DNA of 64,000 nt from Dioscorea cayenensis subsp. rotundata. Taxonomy: Eukaryota > Streptophyta > Magnoliopsida > Dioscoreales > Dioscoreaceae. Every line of letters starts with the position of its first letter. The stretch's first letter is position 1. The stretch is taken from contig NC_052479.1 of assembly GCF_009730915.1 (NCBI RefSeq), forward strand, positions 2,914,001 to 2,978,000. The letters run 5' to 3'. Position numbers and translations under genes: made by a program. This document shows positions 3,240-59,523 of this stretch, piece after piece. Under the pieces are notes generated by a model. The model saw only the letters and a program-made list of their open reading frames with translations. It made no database searches and was not told where the DNA came from.

Positions 3240-3395
3240 ATTATGTAATTTTATTTAAACAGTTAACTACAAATTGTTAACTGTGGAATATATGTAATTT
3301 TATTTAAACAGTTAACTACAAATATTATGTAATTTTATTTAAACAGTTAACTACAAATATTATGGAATATAACAGTCAACTACAAATTGTTGAAA
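3240..3395. repeat. Short tandem repeat, about 3 copies
   Basis: The unit, about 40-45 bases, contains 'ttatgtaattttatttaaac' followed by 'agttaactacaaat'. It recurs three times with small changes, followed by a decayed fourth copy ('aacagtcaactacaaattg'). Confidence 0.7.
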
Positions 3396-3854
3396 GAGGT
3401 GACCTCCTCTTAGCAAAGTATTATCATTAACATTTCTTTGTTGAATTAGGTAAGGATAATATTCTCTCATGGTCAAATATTTTCTTGATAATTTATTTCG
3501 TATTGGAGACTCTTCATAAAGTATGTTTAGATGAAAACAATCTTCACCATATGGGAAAAGCAACGGATATTGAAGTGGCATAAATAAAGGGTGCAAATCA
3601 CGGATCCTTTTCATACCTTCTTCTTGATGCTCTATTATAATATCTCTGCCATGATCACTAATTCCAATATCACAAACAATTAGAGCAGCAATTTCATGAC
3701 TTGTTGGTGCAGAATAATTGTGCTCTTTAGGATTTCGATTTGCAAGCAATTTTATTTTTATTGGTAATTCTTTACATTGTTTTTGCATCTCTCTTGCAGT
3801 GCAAAAAATTTGGACAATTTTATTATGCTGATCTAACATGTTTTTAATCCACAT
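3360..3854 (-). pseudogene. Helitron helicase-like domain remnant
   Basis: A 164-residue open frame matches the Helitron helicase-like N-terminal domain (Rep-associated region) of plant Helitron RepHel proteins. Recognisable segments are AREMQKQ near residue 21, SHEIAALIV near 52, MPLQYPLLFPYGEDCFH (about 92-108), LTMREYYPYLIQQR (about 126-139) and LLRGGHLFQQFVVDCYI at the end, all in family order. A full RepHel protein is well over 1,000 residues, so this is a fragment; the Rep HUH motif and the SF1 helicase motifs are not seen. The minus strand above 3860 to about 4600 looks like decayed upstream parts of the same protein, with many stops. No CTRR end or terminal hairpin was found, so element limits are unknown. 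Confidence 0.8.
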
Positions 3855-8086: not shown

Positions 8087-8218
8087 ATGCTAAGCTTTGC
8101 TCGCTCGCTACTCCTCCTTCAGCTGCCCAACAACTCAGCGCTCGTTGCGCTCGCGCTTGATCGGCGCTTCCGGTGCGCGCGTAGCTTCTTGCACCGTCCC
8201 TTGTGCGCCAGAGCGGAG
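8087..8218 (+). other. Possible N-terminal transit-peptide extension of FHIT
   Basis: The frame is open upstream of the FHIT start to an ATG at 8087. The 44 extra residues begin MLSFARSLLLLQLPNNSALV, contain several arginines and only one glutamate and one aspartate, both in the second half. Such composition fits a mitochondrial or plastid presequence. It could equally be GC-rich 5' UTR that happens to be open. Confidence 0.35.
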
Positions 8219-11200
8219 ATGGAGCCGGAGCCGGAGACGTATAAGTTTGGGCCGTACAAGATCAGCGGCAGCGAGGTCTTCTTCCGCACCGAGCTTTCCT
8301 TTGCCTTTGTCAACCTCCGCCCTGTCGTTCCTGGTAAAATCTCGCTTAGAAAAGAAAGAATCATGCTTTTTTTAAAAAAAAATTGTGCTTGATTGGTGGA
8401 TGCATTTTCTTGGGTTTGTTCTTCTAGTTATTGAAAAATCTTTGATTTAATTTCAGAATTATGAAAATTTTTGTTGTTGATTGTGCCATATTTGAATTTT
8501 TTTGGGGCAATTGAGAACCTGAAGCGAAAGAAAAGAGAATATTGTTTTAAAAGTTAGGTTATTTGGCATTGCTTGAATCTGTTAACAATGAAATGGAGCA
8601 TGAAAAAATTTGATTTTTGTTGAAATTGTTGAGTATATGGTAAAAGTGTGTGAATTGGCAGAGTGGTTAGTGTAAATCGTTGGGCATTTGAACAAAAAAA
8701 CAAAAAACCCCAAATTTGGTTACGTAGGGTAAACGGTTTTGTTTTTTGCTTCCTTACTATTTTTTCCAATTTTTAAATCTTTGATTTATGAGTTTTGTTA
8801 CTTTTCTTTTGTACAAGTGTAAAATTTAGATTTTGTATTCAATTCGGAAAGTTTTGTTGTATCTGATATTTTCTCATACCATTGTCAAAGTCATTTCTAG
8901 TTGATTATCCTTTGTATCTTTTTACATATTTCATTTTCCTCATATTTGGATATTAAATTATGAATTCATGTTTAGGTAAGTGTCATTTCTATGTCAAGGA
9001 AGAAATTTACTTCAGATTGATGCATTGAACATTGATTCTCTTGAAAATCATAGGATAACCATTCCAGATTTACGCATTATTGTTCTGAAAGTTTTGTTAA
9101 ATTTAAAATTTTAATGTCCTTTTTTTTCTCTGCTTTCCCTTTAGTACGTCCATTCTAATTATGTTCTTGAACGTTGCAGGTCATATCCTTTTGTGTGGAC
9201 GAACATATTCATCGTCTTATGATCAAATTATATGATGAGAAATATGATATCTGCTTCAGTTGTGCATGTGTACCTATGTTTAGTAACCAGAACATCAGTT
9301 TGGTGGGATCTTTTTTTAATTACAGGAGCTTGATTATTAAATCCTCAAATACATTAAATTTTATGACTACGTGAAAAGTGATGGTAGCATGCATCTATTT
9401 TGGGAGAAAACTGACAAACTCATAGGAGGATGGATCTCATATCTTCACATATCTGCCAACAGAGCGCTTGTCTTGTATGTTTTGAATGATCATATGTACC
9501 AAATAGTCTATTTGGAGATGTGTTGGTAAGGTAGCATGCCTCCTAAATAGCTTTATCAGAATCTCATTCCTGTCAGTATGTGCTGTTGTGCTTGTAATGC
9601 AATTTCATTGAATTATTGAAGACCTTAACATTATGCACATGTGCTTGTGTGTCCAAGGCGTGAAGTGAAGCGCTTTGTGGATCTTACCGCTGACGAGACT
9701 ATTGACTTATGGCTTACTGCAAAGAAAATTGGTGACCAGCTGGAGAGCTATCACAGGGCATCCTCACTGACATTTACTATCCAGGTAAACTATATAGGAT
9801 TTGATTGCTCTGACATCTAGTTTCATTGGATTAGTGTCTATAATCTTCATATTCTTCTTCTTGTTGATACATGCATTATTATTGTGTAGCTTGTTTTTAA
9901 GTCAAATTACTATATAATCCATTATTTGTTATCCCTATCACATCTTCTTCTTCTTCTTCTTTTTTAATATCAATATGGATAGACCAACCTAATTAAATAT
10001 AAACCACACAAAAGTAGCTAATATTTACAAGTCGTTGTTGATATTTGATAACCAATGGAGAAACATGAACAGCATGTAAACTCTTTGGAGGCCTTTGTTT
10101 TGGTTTCCATAAGTGGTCTTTGAATTAGGAATTCTCATTTCTATTCTCTTATTTTGCTGATTTGACTTAGGCCACCCAAAAAAAAAAAAAGGGTTGACAC
10201 CTCACTTTATGGTTTATGGTGGGCCAGACCCAAACAATTATTCATATGGGCCTTGTCCCGCTGACTCCCTCTTTCAGGCCTACCACAGGTGTAAGCTAAA
10301 GCCAAATTGATTTGTGTTTGGGATGGAGTGAGGTCCTTTTTGATCATATACCTTACGTAACTATTGAACCAATATATGGTTTATTTGATCCATTTCATGC
10401 CAAACATCATGAATAAAGAAATTTATTTGAAATTCATCAAAATTAATCCAATACCCCACTTTGGTGGTTGCCACCTGACAATAGTAAATTGTCACGCCAT
10501 TACTTTTTGATTTTCTTTCCATTTCCAATACCCAAACACATCGTTTGTGTCCATTCAACTCCTACTGCTTGGTTATAAAATAAATAATAAATAAACTTCT
10601 GATTTTAGTGTGTCAATCTCAAATCGCCAAGGTTTAATATGATTGAAACTCTAGGGTTCAGGGAACTGTAGTACAAAGCATATCAAATTATCCTAGATGA
10701 AGGAATCATTCGTTATTTAGGTGTAATCTTGTAATGCTTAAAATATCTGGATTGCTAATTTTATTGTCAACATGCAACTATCTTGTGAACTACTATTAGT
10801 TTATGCTTTCATTCAATTTTTCAATGAACTTCTCGAATAAAACCAATTGTTTTTCATCCAAGTTACGTCTTACAATGAAATATGGACTTTCATGATATGA
10901 ATTCATAAATGGAACAGCTAAGCGGTGGCATATGATCCCAATTCTTAGCCGACCTTGTTTTGGTCTTCTCTATAAATTCTTAGGTGAAAGAGACCCTTGG
11001 TAGTGCCGTCCTGGTCTCAGAAATAAGGAATAAACAACATATAATGCTCTATTTATTGCTGGATCATCTCTGTCATTTTAGCACATTTTGCTACATTGTA
11101 TTGGTGCAAATTTCTCAAACCATTACAGGACAAAGGTTTCTAAACTGGCAACCTATCACATCCTATTGTTAGAATCTGATTCTGTGACATCATGGCTAGT

Positions 11201-12086
11201 TGCTTTAGTAAATTGGGCAATGTTTTTAGTGCTTTGTGAAACTTTCACCAATTTCCTATAGAAATTGTACATAGGCATTTGTTACTTTTACATTGCCTTT
11301 CGGTAATAGGCCTTGTAAGCATGCTAGGCAAATCGAGTGCTTTGAGTATACATTTGCAAATCTTGTTTTTCTTTTCCTTAAAAAAATAATATACAAAGAC
11401 TTCCAAACACACTTGCAATAAAGTTGGTGGATGTTTTTTTGACTTTGCTAATGTTTTCCACCACTAGAATTTGATTGATAAAAAGCTTATACAGTTTAAC
11501 TGTAATGTTTGTTTTTCTTTTGTCCATATTCTTAATTATTTCACCGATGGGTATCTTTCAGATGCTAAATATTTGTGATTGTTATAGGTTCTGTCATTTA
11601 GTGTATTAAACCGGTATATTTCTATTATATATTAAAAAAAAATCTTGTTTTGAGGGAATAAAGTTGCATGCTAAGTTATCTTCACCATCCCACAATTTGA
11701 AAACTTCGGCTAGTGGAGCATAAGTGCCTCGGATTATGTTGGATATTTTTCTTGTTTTAACTCTTTTTCTTTGGCATCTCAGGATGGACCCCAAGCAGGC
11801 CAGACAGTTCCACATGTGCATATTCATATTCTTCCAAGGAAAACTGGCGACTTTGAGAATAATGATGAAATTTATGATGCTGTGAGTGCATGCAATTTGT
11901 CAACCATTCCTGTTTGTTCATTTGGTCAGTTTGTTCTGATTCCTTGACCTTTGACTGGCCCATTAACAGATTGACAAAGAGGAGAAGGAGCTAAAGAAAA
12001 AGCTTGACCTCGATGAGGAGCGGAAAGACAGAACTGCCGATGAAATGGCCCGTGAGGCTGATAACTATCGAGTCCTCTTCTCGTAA
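8219..12086 (+). CDS. FHIT: FHIT-type bis(5'-adenosyl)-triphosphatase (HIT family)
   Basis: The enzyme hydrolyses diadenosine triphosphate to AMP and ADP and may act on related adenylates. Exons: 8219-8333, 9180-9182, 9639-9784, 11783-11881 and 11970-12086, giving 159 residues, usual for the family. The protein opens [15 protein letters not shown], then [15 protein letters not shown] (about 31-45), LTADET (about 54-59), [17 protein letters not shown] (82-98) and the catalytic histidine triad HVHIH (99-103; H101 is the expected nucleophile). The C-terminus is a charged helix ending YRVLFS. Intron 1 and the last two introns are GT-AG. The second intron (9183-9638) is AT-AC with U12-type signals, and the exon before it is only 3 nt (see findings). 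An in-frame ATG at 8087 would add 44 basic, Ser/Leu-rich residues resembling an organelle transit peptide; I chose 8219 because homology begins there. Family identity is near certain; the microexon is inferred. Confidence 0.93.
9183..9638 (+). other. U12-type AT-AC intron of FHIT
   Basis: The intron starts ATATCCTTTT, the minor-spliceosome 5' splice-site consensus. It ends with ACCTTAAC (9622-9629), matching the U12 branch site, about 10 bases before the terminal AC (9637-9638). Joining across it splits a histidine codon as C|AT and restores the conserved GHVLVCP. No AG lies where a U2-type acceptor would be needed for that frame. Confidence 0.88.
9785..11782 (+). other. Large third intron of FHIT (about 2 kb)
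   Basis: A GT-AG intron with an AT-rich interior. The segment at about 10,080-10,570 is less AT-rich and may be an old transposon insertion ('ggaggcctttgttttggttt'), but I could not find matching ends. No nested gene is recognised. Confidence 0.6.
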
Positions 12087-58228: not shown

Positions 58229-58993
58229 TTAGAGACATTGATCAAGTCCAAGCAATGCTTGAACTTCCCTGTAGTGATTGCCTTGATCTGATTTTGTAAC
58301 TGCAACAACAACTCCACCTATAACTGTATTTCCCATCAACGTGTAGATATTCCTAACACTCCTTTCTCCTTTCATCACTATCAAACCATTCTTACTCACC
58401 ACAATGCAATCCTTTTCGGTTTTATAGCCAAAACCGTTTCTATGCAAAGTACCCAAAGAAATCAGATTCTTCTTTAATTCTGGAACATGTCGAACATCAC
58501 ACAAAGTCCGAACAACACCATTATGCATCCGAATCTTGATCTGCCCTTTTCCAGCAATAGCACAAGCTTTATCATTGCCCATGTAGACAAAACCAAAATC
58601 CCCTGATTTGTATGAATCAAACCAGTCCTTGTTCCATGTCATGTGAAACGAACATCCTGTATCCAAAATCCATGAATCTGAGATTTTACATGATGAAACT
58701 GAAAGCAGATCCCCATCACTACAATTTGAATCACCGCGCTGCATCACATTAGCAAACTGTGATGAATTATTGTTCCTTTCATCAATCTGTTGCTTCTTGT
58801 TTGGACAGTCTTTCCTAATATGCCCCATCTGTTGGCACTTATAACATTGAACAAATCTTCTGACTCTGGAATTCCTTTTGCTGAAATCATCTTTCCCCTG
58901 CCTTCTCCCAGTTTCCTGGTTGCCTTTCACATACAACACTTCCGTTTGAGAACCTTCAGCATTATTTTGCTTCTGCTGATTGTGGGCTAACAA
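58229..58993 (-). pseudogene. copia gag end, zinc knuckle and protease, truncated
   Basis: 254 codons. CYKCQQMGHIRKDC is the CCHC knuckle (about 50-63). WILDTGCSFHMT holds the aspartic protease DTG site (about 108-119), followed by LCDVRHVPELKKNLISLGTL. After IYTLMGNTVIGG the sequence leaves the usual GAG-pre-integrase path. The overlapping minus frame at 58,111-58,317 reads AITTGKFKHCLDLINVS, the usual C-terminus of copia RNase H. One deletion therefore removed integrase, reverse transcriptase and most of RNase H. Confidence 0.88.
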
Positions 58994-59523
58994 CGCGTAG
59001 TGATCTCATCTACTTTGAGCGTATCTTTCCCCCATGTGAGTGTAGTCACTAGATGCTCATATGAAGGCGGTAAAGAGCACAGCAAAATCATAGTTTTGTC
59101 TTCATCTTCAATAACGACCTCAATTCTCTGCAAATCACTGACTGTGTGATTGAAGAAATTGATATGTTGTACCAGATCTGCACCTTCCTGCAACTTCAGG
59201 CCGTACAGTTTCTGCTTCAGATACAACTTATTTGTCAGAGATTTCGGCATATATCGACCCTCCAATTTCTTCCAGACCTCCACCGGAGACGAGAGATCCA
59301 TGACGTGATACATAACATCATCCGCCAAACACAACCGAATAAGTGCCGCCGCTTTTGTTTGTAAATCCAACCAAACTTGGTCTTCTAAACCTTGAGGCTT
59401 TCTCTCTTCTAATGCTTTCAACATCCCTTGCTGCACTAGCAAATCCTTTACCCTCCGCTGCCATAATCCGAAATTCCCAGTTCCATTGAACCTTTCCACA
59501 TCGAATTTTGTAATAGAGTTCAT
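58987..59523 (-). pseudogene. copia gag (UBN2-type) open frame
   Basis: 178 codons starting MNSITKFDVERFNGTGNFGL, with LWQRRVKDLLVQQG, DLSSPVEVWKKLEGRYM and LYGLKLQEGADLVQHINFFN, all standard for plant copia gag. It starts 33 bases after the LTR edge. The frame stops right after LKVDEITT; the expected continuation (LLAHNQQK...) is in the next phase, so a one-base change splits gag from pol near 58,985. Confidence 0.9.

Follow-up and report, generated by a model that had tools for sequence, protein, structure and literature searches.

How is a conserved Gly-His pair of a histidine triad protein encoded when the exon that supplies it is only three nucleotides long and lies between introns of two different spliceosomal classes? 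This question is raised by the FHIT gene (bis(5'-adenosyl)-triphosphatase), which is located on the + strand of a 64-kb stretch of Dioscorea cayenensis subsp. rotundata DNA that was analyzed as a whole and is referred to here as the window. The features of the gene are as follows.

8087..8333, + strand: FHIT coding exon 1, with its ATG at 8087 and ending ..GTT CCT G, from the spliced model equal to P0001.
8219, + strand: second in-frame ATG of exon 1, reading MEPEPE...
8334..9179, + strand: U2-type intron, GTAAAA...TTGCAG, 846 nt, from the sequence (CCTG/GTAAAA); the exon-1 open reading frames (ORFs) of other plants depart at the same point.
9180..9182, + strand: 3-nt coding exon GTC, which completes Gly (GGT) and starts His (C/AT).
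9183..9638, + strand: U12-type AT-AC intron, ATATCCTTTT...CCTTAACATTATGCAC, 456 nt, matching the consensus ATATCCTT, TCCTTAAC and AC.
9622..9629, + strand: branch-site match ACCTTAAC, 7/8 to TCCTTAAC, with the branch A at 9628, 10 nt from the intron end.
9637-9638, + strand: terminal AC of the AT-AC intron, from the sequence.
9639..9784, + strand: FHIT coding exon 3, starting ATGTGCTTGTGTGTCCA, from the spliced model.
11783..11881, + strand: FHIT coding exon 4, with the HVHIH histidine triad, from the spliced model.
11970..12086, + strand: FHIT coding exon 5, including the stop codon, from the spliced model.

Joining these five exons led to a protein of 203 residues that is letter-for-letter identical to the NCBI FHIT protein of D. 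cayenensis subsp. rotundata (P0001, a record of unstated derivation), and this exact agreement of the GTC-containing model supports the exon. Around the microexon, the window reads ...TTGAACGTTGCAG/GTC/ATATCCTTTT..., and the conserved Gly codon takes its second and third bases from GTC and the conserved His codon its first, the two residues corresponding to Gly34-His35 of the human chain. The residues across the junction, VVPGHVLVCP, are shared without change by the yam model and human FHIT (chain 1fhi; E value of the match, 2e-45), and the whole protein carries the HIT domain (PF01230; 94.6 bits against a cut-off of 21.5). Both PGH and the histidine triad PHVHIH are present in the model, the former requiring GTC. 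A preliminary description of this DNA had proposed that GTC is an exon flanked by a U2-type intron on one side and a U12-type intron on the other, and that it is needed for the conserved Gly-His; the sequence, the motifs, and the model identical to P0001 agree with the first claim, and the shared VVPGHVLVCP of yam and human bears out the second. At the other end of exon 1, positions 8087-8218 encode a 44-residue N-terminal extension (MLSFARSLLLLQLPNN..) ahead of MEPEPE, which by eye resembles a possible organelle presequence.

Published AT-AC minor introns, as given in the available part of the source, start with ATATCCTT, have a branch site TCCTTAAC, and end in AC (PMC2831892). In line with this, the yam intron at 9183-9638 carries ATATCCTT at +1 to +8 (9183-9190; 8/8), a branch site matching at 7/8 positions, whose CCTTAAC precedes the acceptor, and an AC acceptor. 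By these motifs it belongs to the U12-type AT-AC class, and its removal would be expected to require U11, U12, U4atac, and U6atac. We put at roughly 0.9 the probability that the GTC of 9180-9182 forms a real 3-nt coding exon of FHIT that is included constitutively, and this figure covers the exon and not the order of splicing; constitutive inclusion in yam is a prediction from the sequence.

Homologous proteins were examined at the junction. PGH was found in 100 of the 120 listed homologues (the best 120 of 1181 matches). The remainder of these 120 comprised 6 PVH, 4 PAH, and 4 PGN forms, one each of PETH, PGD, PD, and ESH, and 2 proteins without the motif. We read most of these 20 listed non-PGH homologues as annotation errors, since Lithospermum erythrorhizon has both a PGH record (P0010) and a PVH record (P0019); some could be real substitutions or isoforms. 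Several of the forms are the expected output of a program unable to place a 3-nt exon and an AT-AC intron, and PGN would, in our reading, arise by extension of exon 1 with GTA. Within Dioscorea, the FHIT proteins of four species give four different readings of this one junction. The D. alata protein (P0002) reads PAH, as in the VVPAHVLVCP obtained from a join of 8333 to 9636 (GT..TG ends), and could reflect either misannotation or a true substitution. The reading of the D. sansibarensis protein (P0004) is reproduced by a GT-AG join of 8333 to 9666, while that of D. zingiberensis (P0003) is PGHILFWRNIFIIV, as expected, at the level of the protein, from GTC/ATATCCTT running into the AT-AC intron; both look like annotation errors. 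A further set of six listed proteins came from short contigs, the longest contig of each being 924-1001 bases and encoding 150-162 amino acids of FHIT. Because 150-162 residues fit in at most 1001 bases, whereas the gene in the window spans 4 kb, these six contigs are probably assembled spliced RNA. PGHVLVCP is present in all six (P0009, P0058, P0065, P0111, P0114, and P0115), none of which is known to be from yam.

Recurrence of the layout in other plants was assessed from protein readings rather than from plant DNA. Searches with exon-1 peptides returned 90 matches to short exon-1 ORFs, and a deep-lineage query returned 19, 10 of them new, resulting in 100 distinct exon-1 ORFs, 56 from unnamed contigs and 44 from named records (labels typed by hand from the match tables). 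GHIL, the translation of G/GTC/ATATCCTT, was contained in two rows of the deep-lineage query alignment, slightly biasing its matches toward GHIL; the first alignment was without GHIL. Departure from the conserved sequence directly after the same Gly was seen in 52 of the 56 unnamed-contig ORFs. Fifty of the 56 have G followed by a different tail, and 46 of these tails begin as GN, GT, GM, GK, GI, or GG, as can result from translation of CCNG followed by a GT donor. In two others (P0173 and P0212), exon 1 is separated from GHIL by a short intron-like stretch; a count of residues would put the introns in between at 87 and 96 nt, and the residues preceding GHIL (..LA and ..FS) are compatible with an AG acceptor. 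Exon 1 runs straight into GHIL in P0165 and P0207, which may reflect the lack of a U2 intron in those lineages or spliced RNA that still contains the AT-AC intron, and an uninterrupted GHV is read in the last two (P0217 and P0220). The relatives of P0212, and P0212 itself, are conifers at a guess; a short-peptide tree (36 columns, with 21 of 34 inner branches open) separates this group from most flowering plants in the tree.

Among the named models, GHIL follows exon 1 in 27 of 44, representing 26 species, including the fern Adiantum (P0208) and the liverwort Marchantia (P0206). The protein readings of these two are compatible with the presence or the absence of the U2 intron, and for most of the 27 a U2-spliced and a contiguous arrangement give the same protein. 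GHIL is absent from 17 named models, 14 of which depart after G, unlike the other 3 (P0163, P0180, and P0205); one of the 44 is from a shark. Several sets of records share exon 1 and nonetheless differ beyond it, one side departing after G and the other reading GHIL: Trifolium repens P0122 and the unnamed P0146 (36 exon-1 residues shared), P0131 and P0133 from two Erythranthe species (51 residues), Urochloa P0189 and several contigs (31-35 residues; 35 with P0183), and P0215 and P0219, both from Rubroshorea leprosula (26 residues). Because these records share exon 1 yet differ in this way, they point to an intron between G and GHIL in other plants. Random read-through into an intron was considered as a source of GHIL and rejected, as His-Ile-Leu is constant and the residues downstream vary between genera. 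Close relatives share their post-GHIL tails (two Rosa sericea records; Castanea and Quercus), and P0189 ends at GHIL. Judged from these readings, the layout is old, widespread in flowering plants, and older than Dioscorea.

The age of the layout bears on its origin. The preliminary description had explained the layout by a newly gained U2 intron, a scenario that is not supported for Dioscorea, as the exon-1 ORFs of other plants also exit after Gly. The U2 intron predates Dioscorea, since many plants exit after Gly and P0173 and P0212 read an intron-like stretch and then GHIL; shifted to a much older ancestor, the insertion scenario could still be right. We give even odds to an account that assigns the two introns different ages, with either an older U12 intron and a U2 intron inserted 3 nt upstream of it long ago or an older U2 intron and a U12 donor derived from coding sequence. 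The latter route is suggested by C ATA TCC TT, which encodes His-Ile-Leu, near the conserved His-Val-Leu. The Marchantia and Adiantum models, which end in GHIL, indicate that the U12 donor is perhaps as old as land plants, and a short FHIT model of the catshark Scyliorhinus torazame (P0210) departs after VVPG, which hints that animals have an intron in or close to this position. The uninterrupted GHV of P0217 and P0220, however, argues against this account. Tandem duplication of the exon start was also considered as a source of the AT-AC intron: GHILLCGR and GHVLVCPR are alike by eye only, and the idea was rejected because the post-GHIL residues of other plants show no steady likeness, so that the resemblance beyond the donor consensus is attributed to chance.

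In the splicing scheme that we propose, the major spliceosome would remove the upstream intron (8334-9179) and the minor spliceosome would remove the AT-AC intron (9183-9638). With only 3 nt separating the U2 acceptor from the U12 donor, the two introns would most likely be recognized sequentially, through intron definition; at this distance the two machineries probably exclude each other. Plant introns can be recognized across the intron, which allows for a 3-nt exon, as illustrated by the 1-nt exon of APC11 (PMC4674806). If the U2 intron were removed first, the resulting exon 1-GTC intermediate would still contain the AT-AC intron, and the minor spliceosome would then finish the reaction. 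We lean toward this as the usual order, because minor introns are described, in the available part of the source, as less efficiently spliced (PMC2952598) and because gene models that retain the AT-AC intron are common, although such models may merely reflect gene finders that ignore AT-AC introns.

The same exon could also be spliced in the reverse order, a reading that we regard as possible but the less probable of the two. Here the minor spliceosome would remove 9183-9638 first, which would turn ...cag/GTCATGTGC... into an ordinary exon of 149 nt before the U2 intron is removed. The normal size of this 3' exon speaks for it, and recent evidence that both kinds of splicing are fast enough for mostly co-transcriptional intron removal, as reported in the available text of PMC7367187, weakens the case for removal of the U2 intron first. 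The lower efficiency described for U12 introns (PMC2952598, available part) stands against it, as does retention of the AT-AC intron in 27 named gene models, though the latter is maybe a gene-finder effect. Returning to the preferred order, in which the U2 intron goes first, we tentatively suggest that the 3-nt exon might serve as a hand-over point between spliceosomes, where the footprints of the U2 acceptor and the U12 donor overlap and the minor spliceosome can act only once the major one has left, throughout flowering plants and perhaps land plants. If so, FHIT mRNA output would be gated by minor-spliceosome activity.

It is very unlikely that GTC is skipped or optional and of little importance, with exon 1 joined to 9639 by a GT...AC reaction. 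As the preliminary description had stated, leaving GTC out keeps the frame and replaces Gly-His with Asp, the computed join reading VVPDVLVCP. The preserved frame makes such a product conceivable, and one of the 120 listed homologues (of 1181), Protea cynaroides P0117, is annotated as PDVLVCP, the product of this skip. However, a GT-AC pair would mix intron classes and the conserved His would be lost, whereas PGH is kept in 100 of the 120 listed homologues (of 1181) and in all six RNA-like contigs.

Alternative joins between exon 1 and the exon starting at 9639 were enumerated. Among in-frame segments of at most 39 nt that run from AG to GT, GC, or AT in the stretch between exon 1 and 9639, five keep P-G..H..VLVCP, and of these five GTC alone gives an uninterrupted PGHVLVCP, with no extra residues. 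When the ends are confined to 8301-8360 and 9559-9643, a lone GT-AG, GC-AG, or AT-AC intron never gives PGHVLVCP. A wider set of open-frame joins with GT-AC pairs admitted (n = 17) contained the join of 8333 to 9639, reading PDVLVCP, and that of 8333 to 9666, reading PVKRF. The motifs were then compared with chance expectation. By itself, the donor motif is not rare, as ATATCCTTT has 1 match in 64 kb against 2.03 expected, and neither is CCTTAAC 4-18 nt before AC (4 matches in 64 kb; 4.25 expected). In register, the 1305 nt that separate exon 1 from 9639 should contain AG/GNC/ATATCCTT about 5e-5 times (4.5e-5) by chance, and the expectation for CCTTAAC lying, relative to a given AC, at any of the 12 distances that fit is 2.5e-4; neither in-register motif occurred in any of 3000 dinucleotide shuffles. 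Motifs in register are very unlikely at random, which speaks for the microexon. The least probable reading, a single intron at 8336-9637 with unusual ends (AA...CA) and no microexon, with AG/GTC/ATATCCTT present by chance, does yield PGHVLVCP with an mRNA identical to that of the GTC model (join of 8335 to 9638), as PGHVLVCP is also yielded by the non-canonical join of 8334 to 9637 (TA..GC ends), but to our knowledge neither pair of ends matches any spliceosome class, the in-register arrangement has the chance expectation of about 5e-5 given above, and layout-compatible readings recur in other plants.

The GTC exon can be compared with several known systems. In the available text of a 2022 plant microexon survey, a microexon is an internal coding exon of 1-15 nt whose cluster occurs in at least three of its nine land plants, and both discovery and modelling were limited to GT-AG or GC-AG introns (PMC8831610). 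GTC is of this size, being 3 nt long, internal, and in the coding frame, and its downstream intron is AT-AC, outside the flanking-intron rule in that text; the survey, as described there, could not list the GTC exon because AT-AC introns fall outside its rules. Layout-compatible readings, taken from proteins and apart from the nine genomes of the survey (PMC8831610), were found in many plants. The same holds for the plant microexon clusters and their database MEPDB, as far as the available texts describe them (PMC8831610, PMC12409088): GTC shares their size class of 1-15 nt and their internal, coding position, but its AT-AC downstream intron is excluded by their rules. The main texts of the survey and of the 2025 database paper contain none of the terms FHIT, histidine triad, and U12 (PMC8831610, PMC12409088). 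The 1-nt plant microexon of APC11 (and of VPS55) is, like GTC, ultra-short, coding, conserved, and usually unannotated, and that of APC11 is reported as constitutive; unlike GTC, it is not described as adjoining an AT-AC intron in the available parts of these sources (PMC4674806, PMC8831610).

Other likenesses concern the proximity of the two splice sites. In vertebrate exon bridging, as described in the available parts of the sources, U2AF at an upstream major acceptor interacts across one exon with a U11 protein located at the minor donor downstream (PMC8034651, PMC8329584), whereas the GTC exon, at 3 nt, would probably leave no room for such side-by-side binding. Zero-nucleotide recursive splicing at AG/GT, as presented in the available text of PMC13149111, has a near-abutting acceptor and donor as in FHIT, which suggests stepwise removal; in contrast, FHIT keeps 3 nt in the mRNA, its second step would switch spliceosome class, and its introns are short. 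Where a recursive site in that text has nothing between AG and GT and lies in a very long intron, FHIT has AG/GTC/AT and introns of 846 and 456 nt. Nor is the locus a twintron, for which the available part of PMC3564746 gives two intron types at the same gene position, as the introns here are adjacent with an exon between them. No description of the FHIT 3-nt exon was found in the searchable literature, and earlier notice in subscription papers or in supplementary U12 intron lists is possible. A very small natural exon between introns of different classes would allow a direct test of recognition at sites 3 nt apart, and of its order, and microexon surveys limited to GT-AG and GC-AG introns are blind to exons adjoining AT-AC introns.

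Finally, a search for FHIT relatives in viral and prokaryote contigs brought up no plant DNA and a single bacterial locus (L001), at 28% identity. Scanning the window for tRNA genes and Rfam families gave no match. Elsewhere in the window, three regions on the - strand were noted. An ORF at 3360-3854 encodes 164 amino acids with no Pfam match and by eye only resembles an N-terminal piece of a Helitron helicase, and the ORF at 24104-24571 matches the C-terminal portion of a protein kinase domain. Pieces of a Copia-type retrotransposon, with matches to Retrotran_gag_2, zf-CCHC, and Pol_BBD, are located at 58229-59523.
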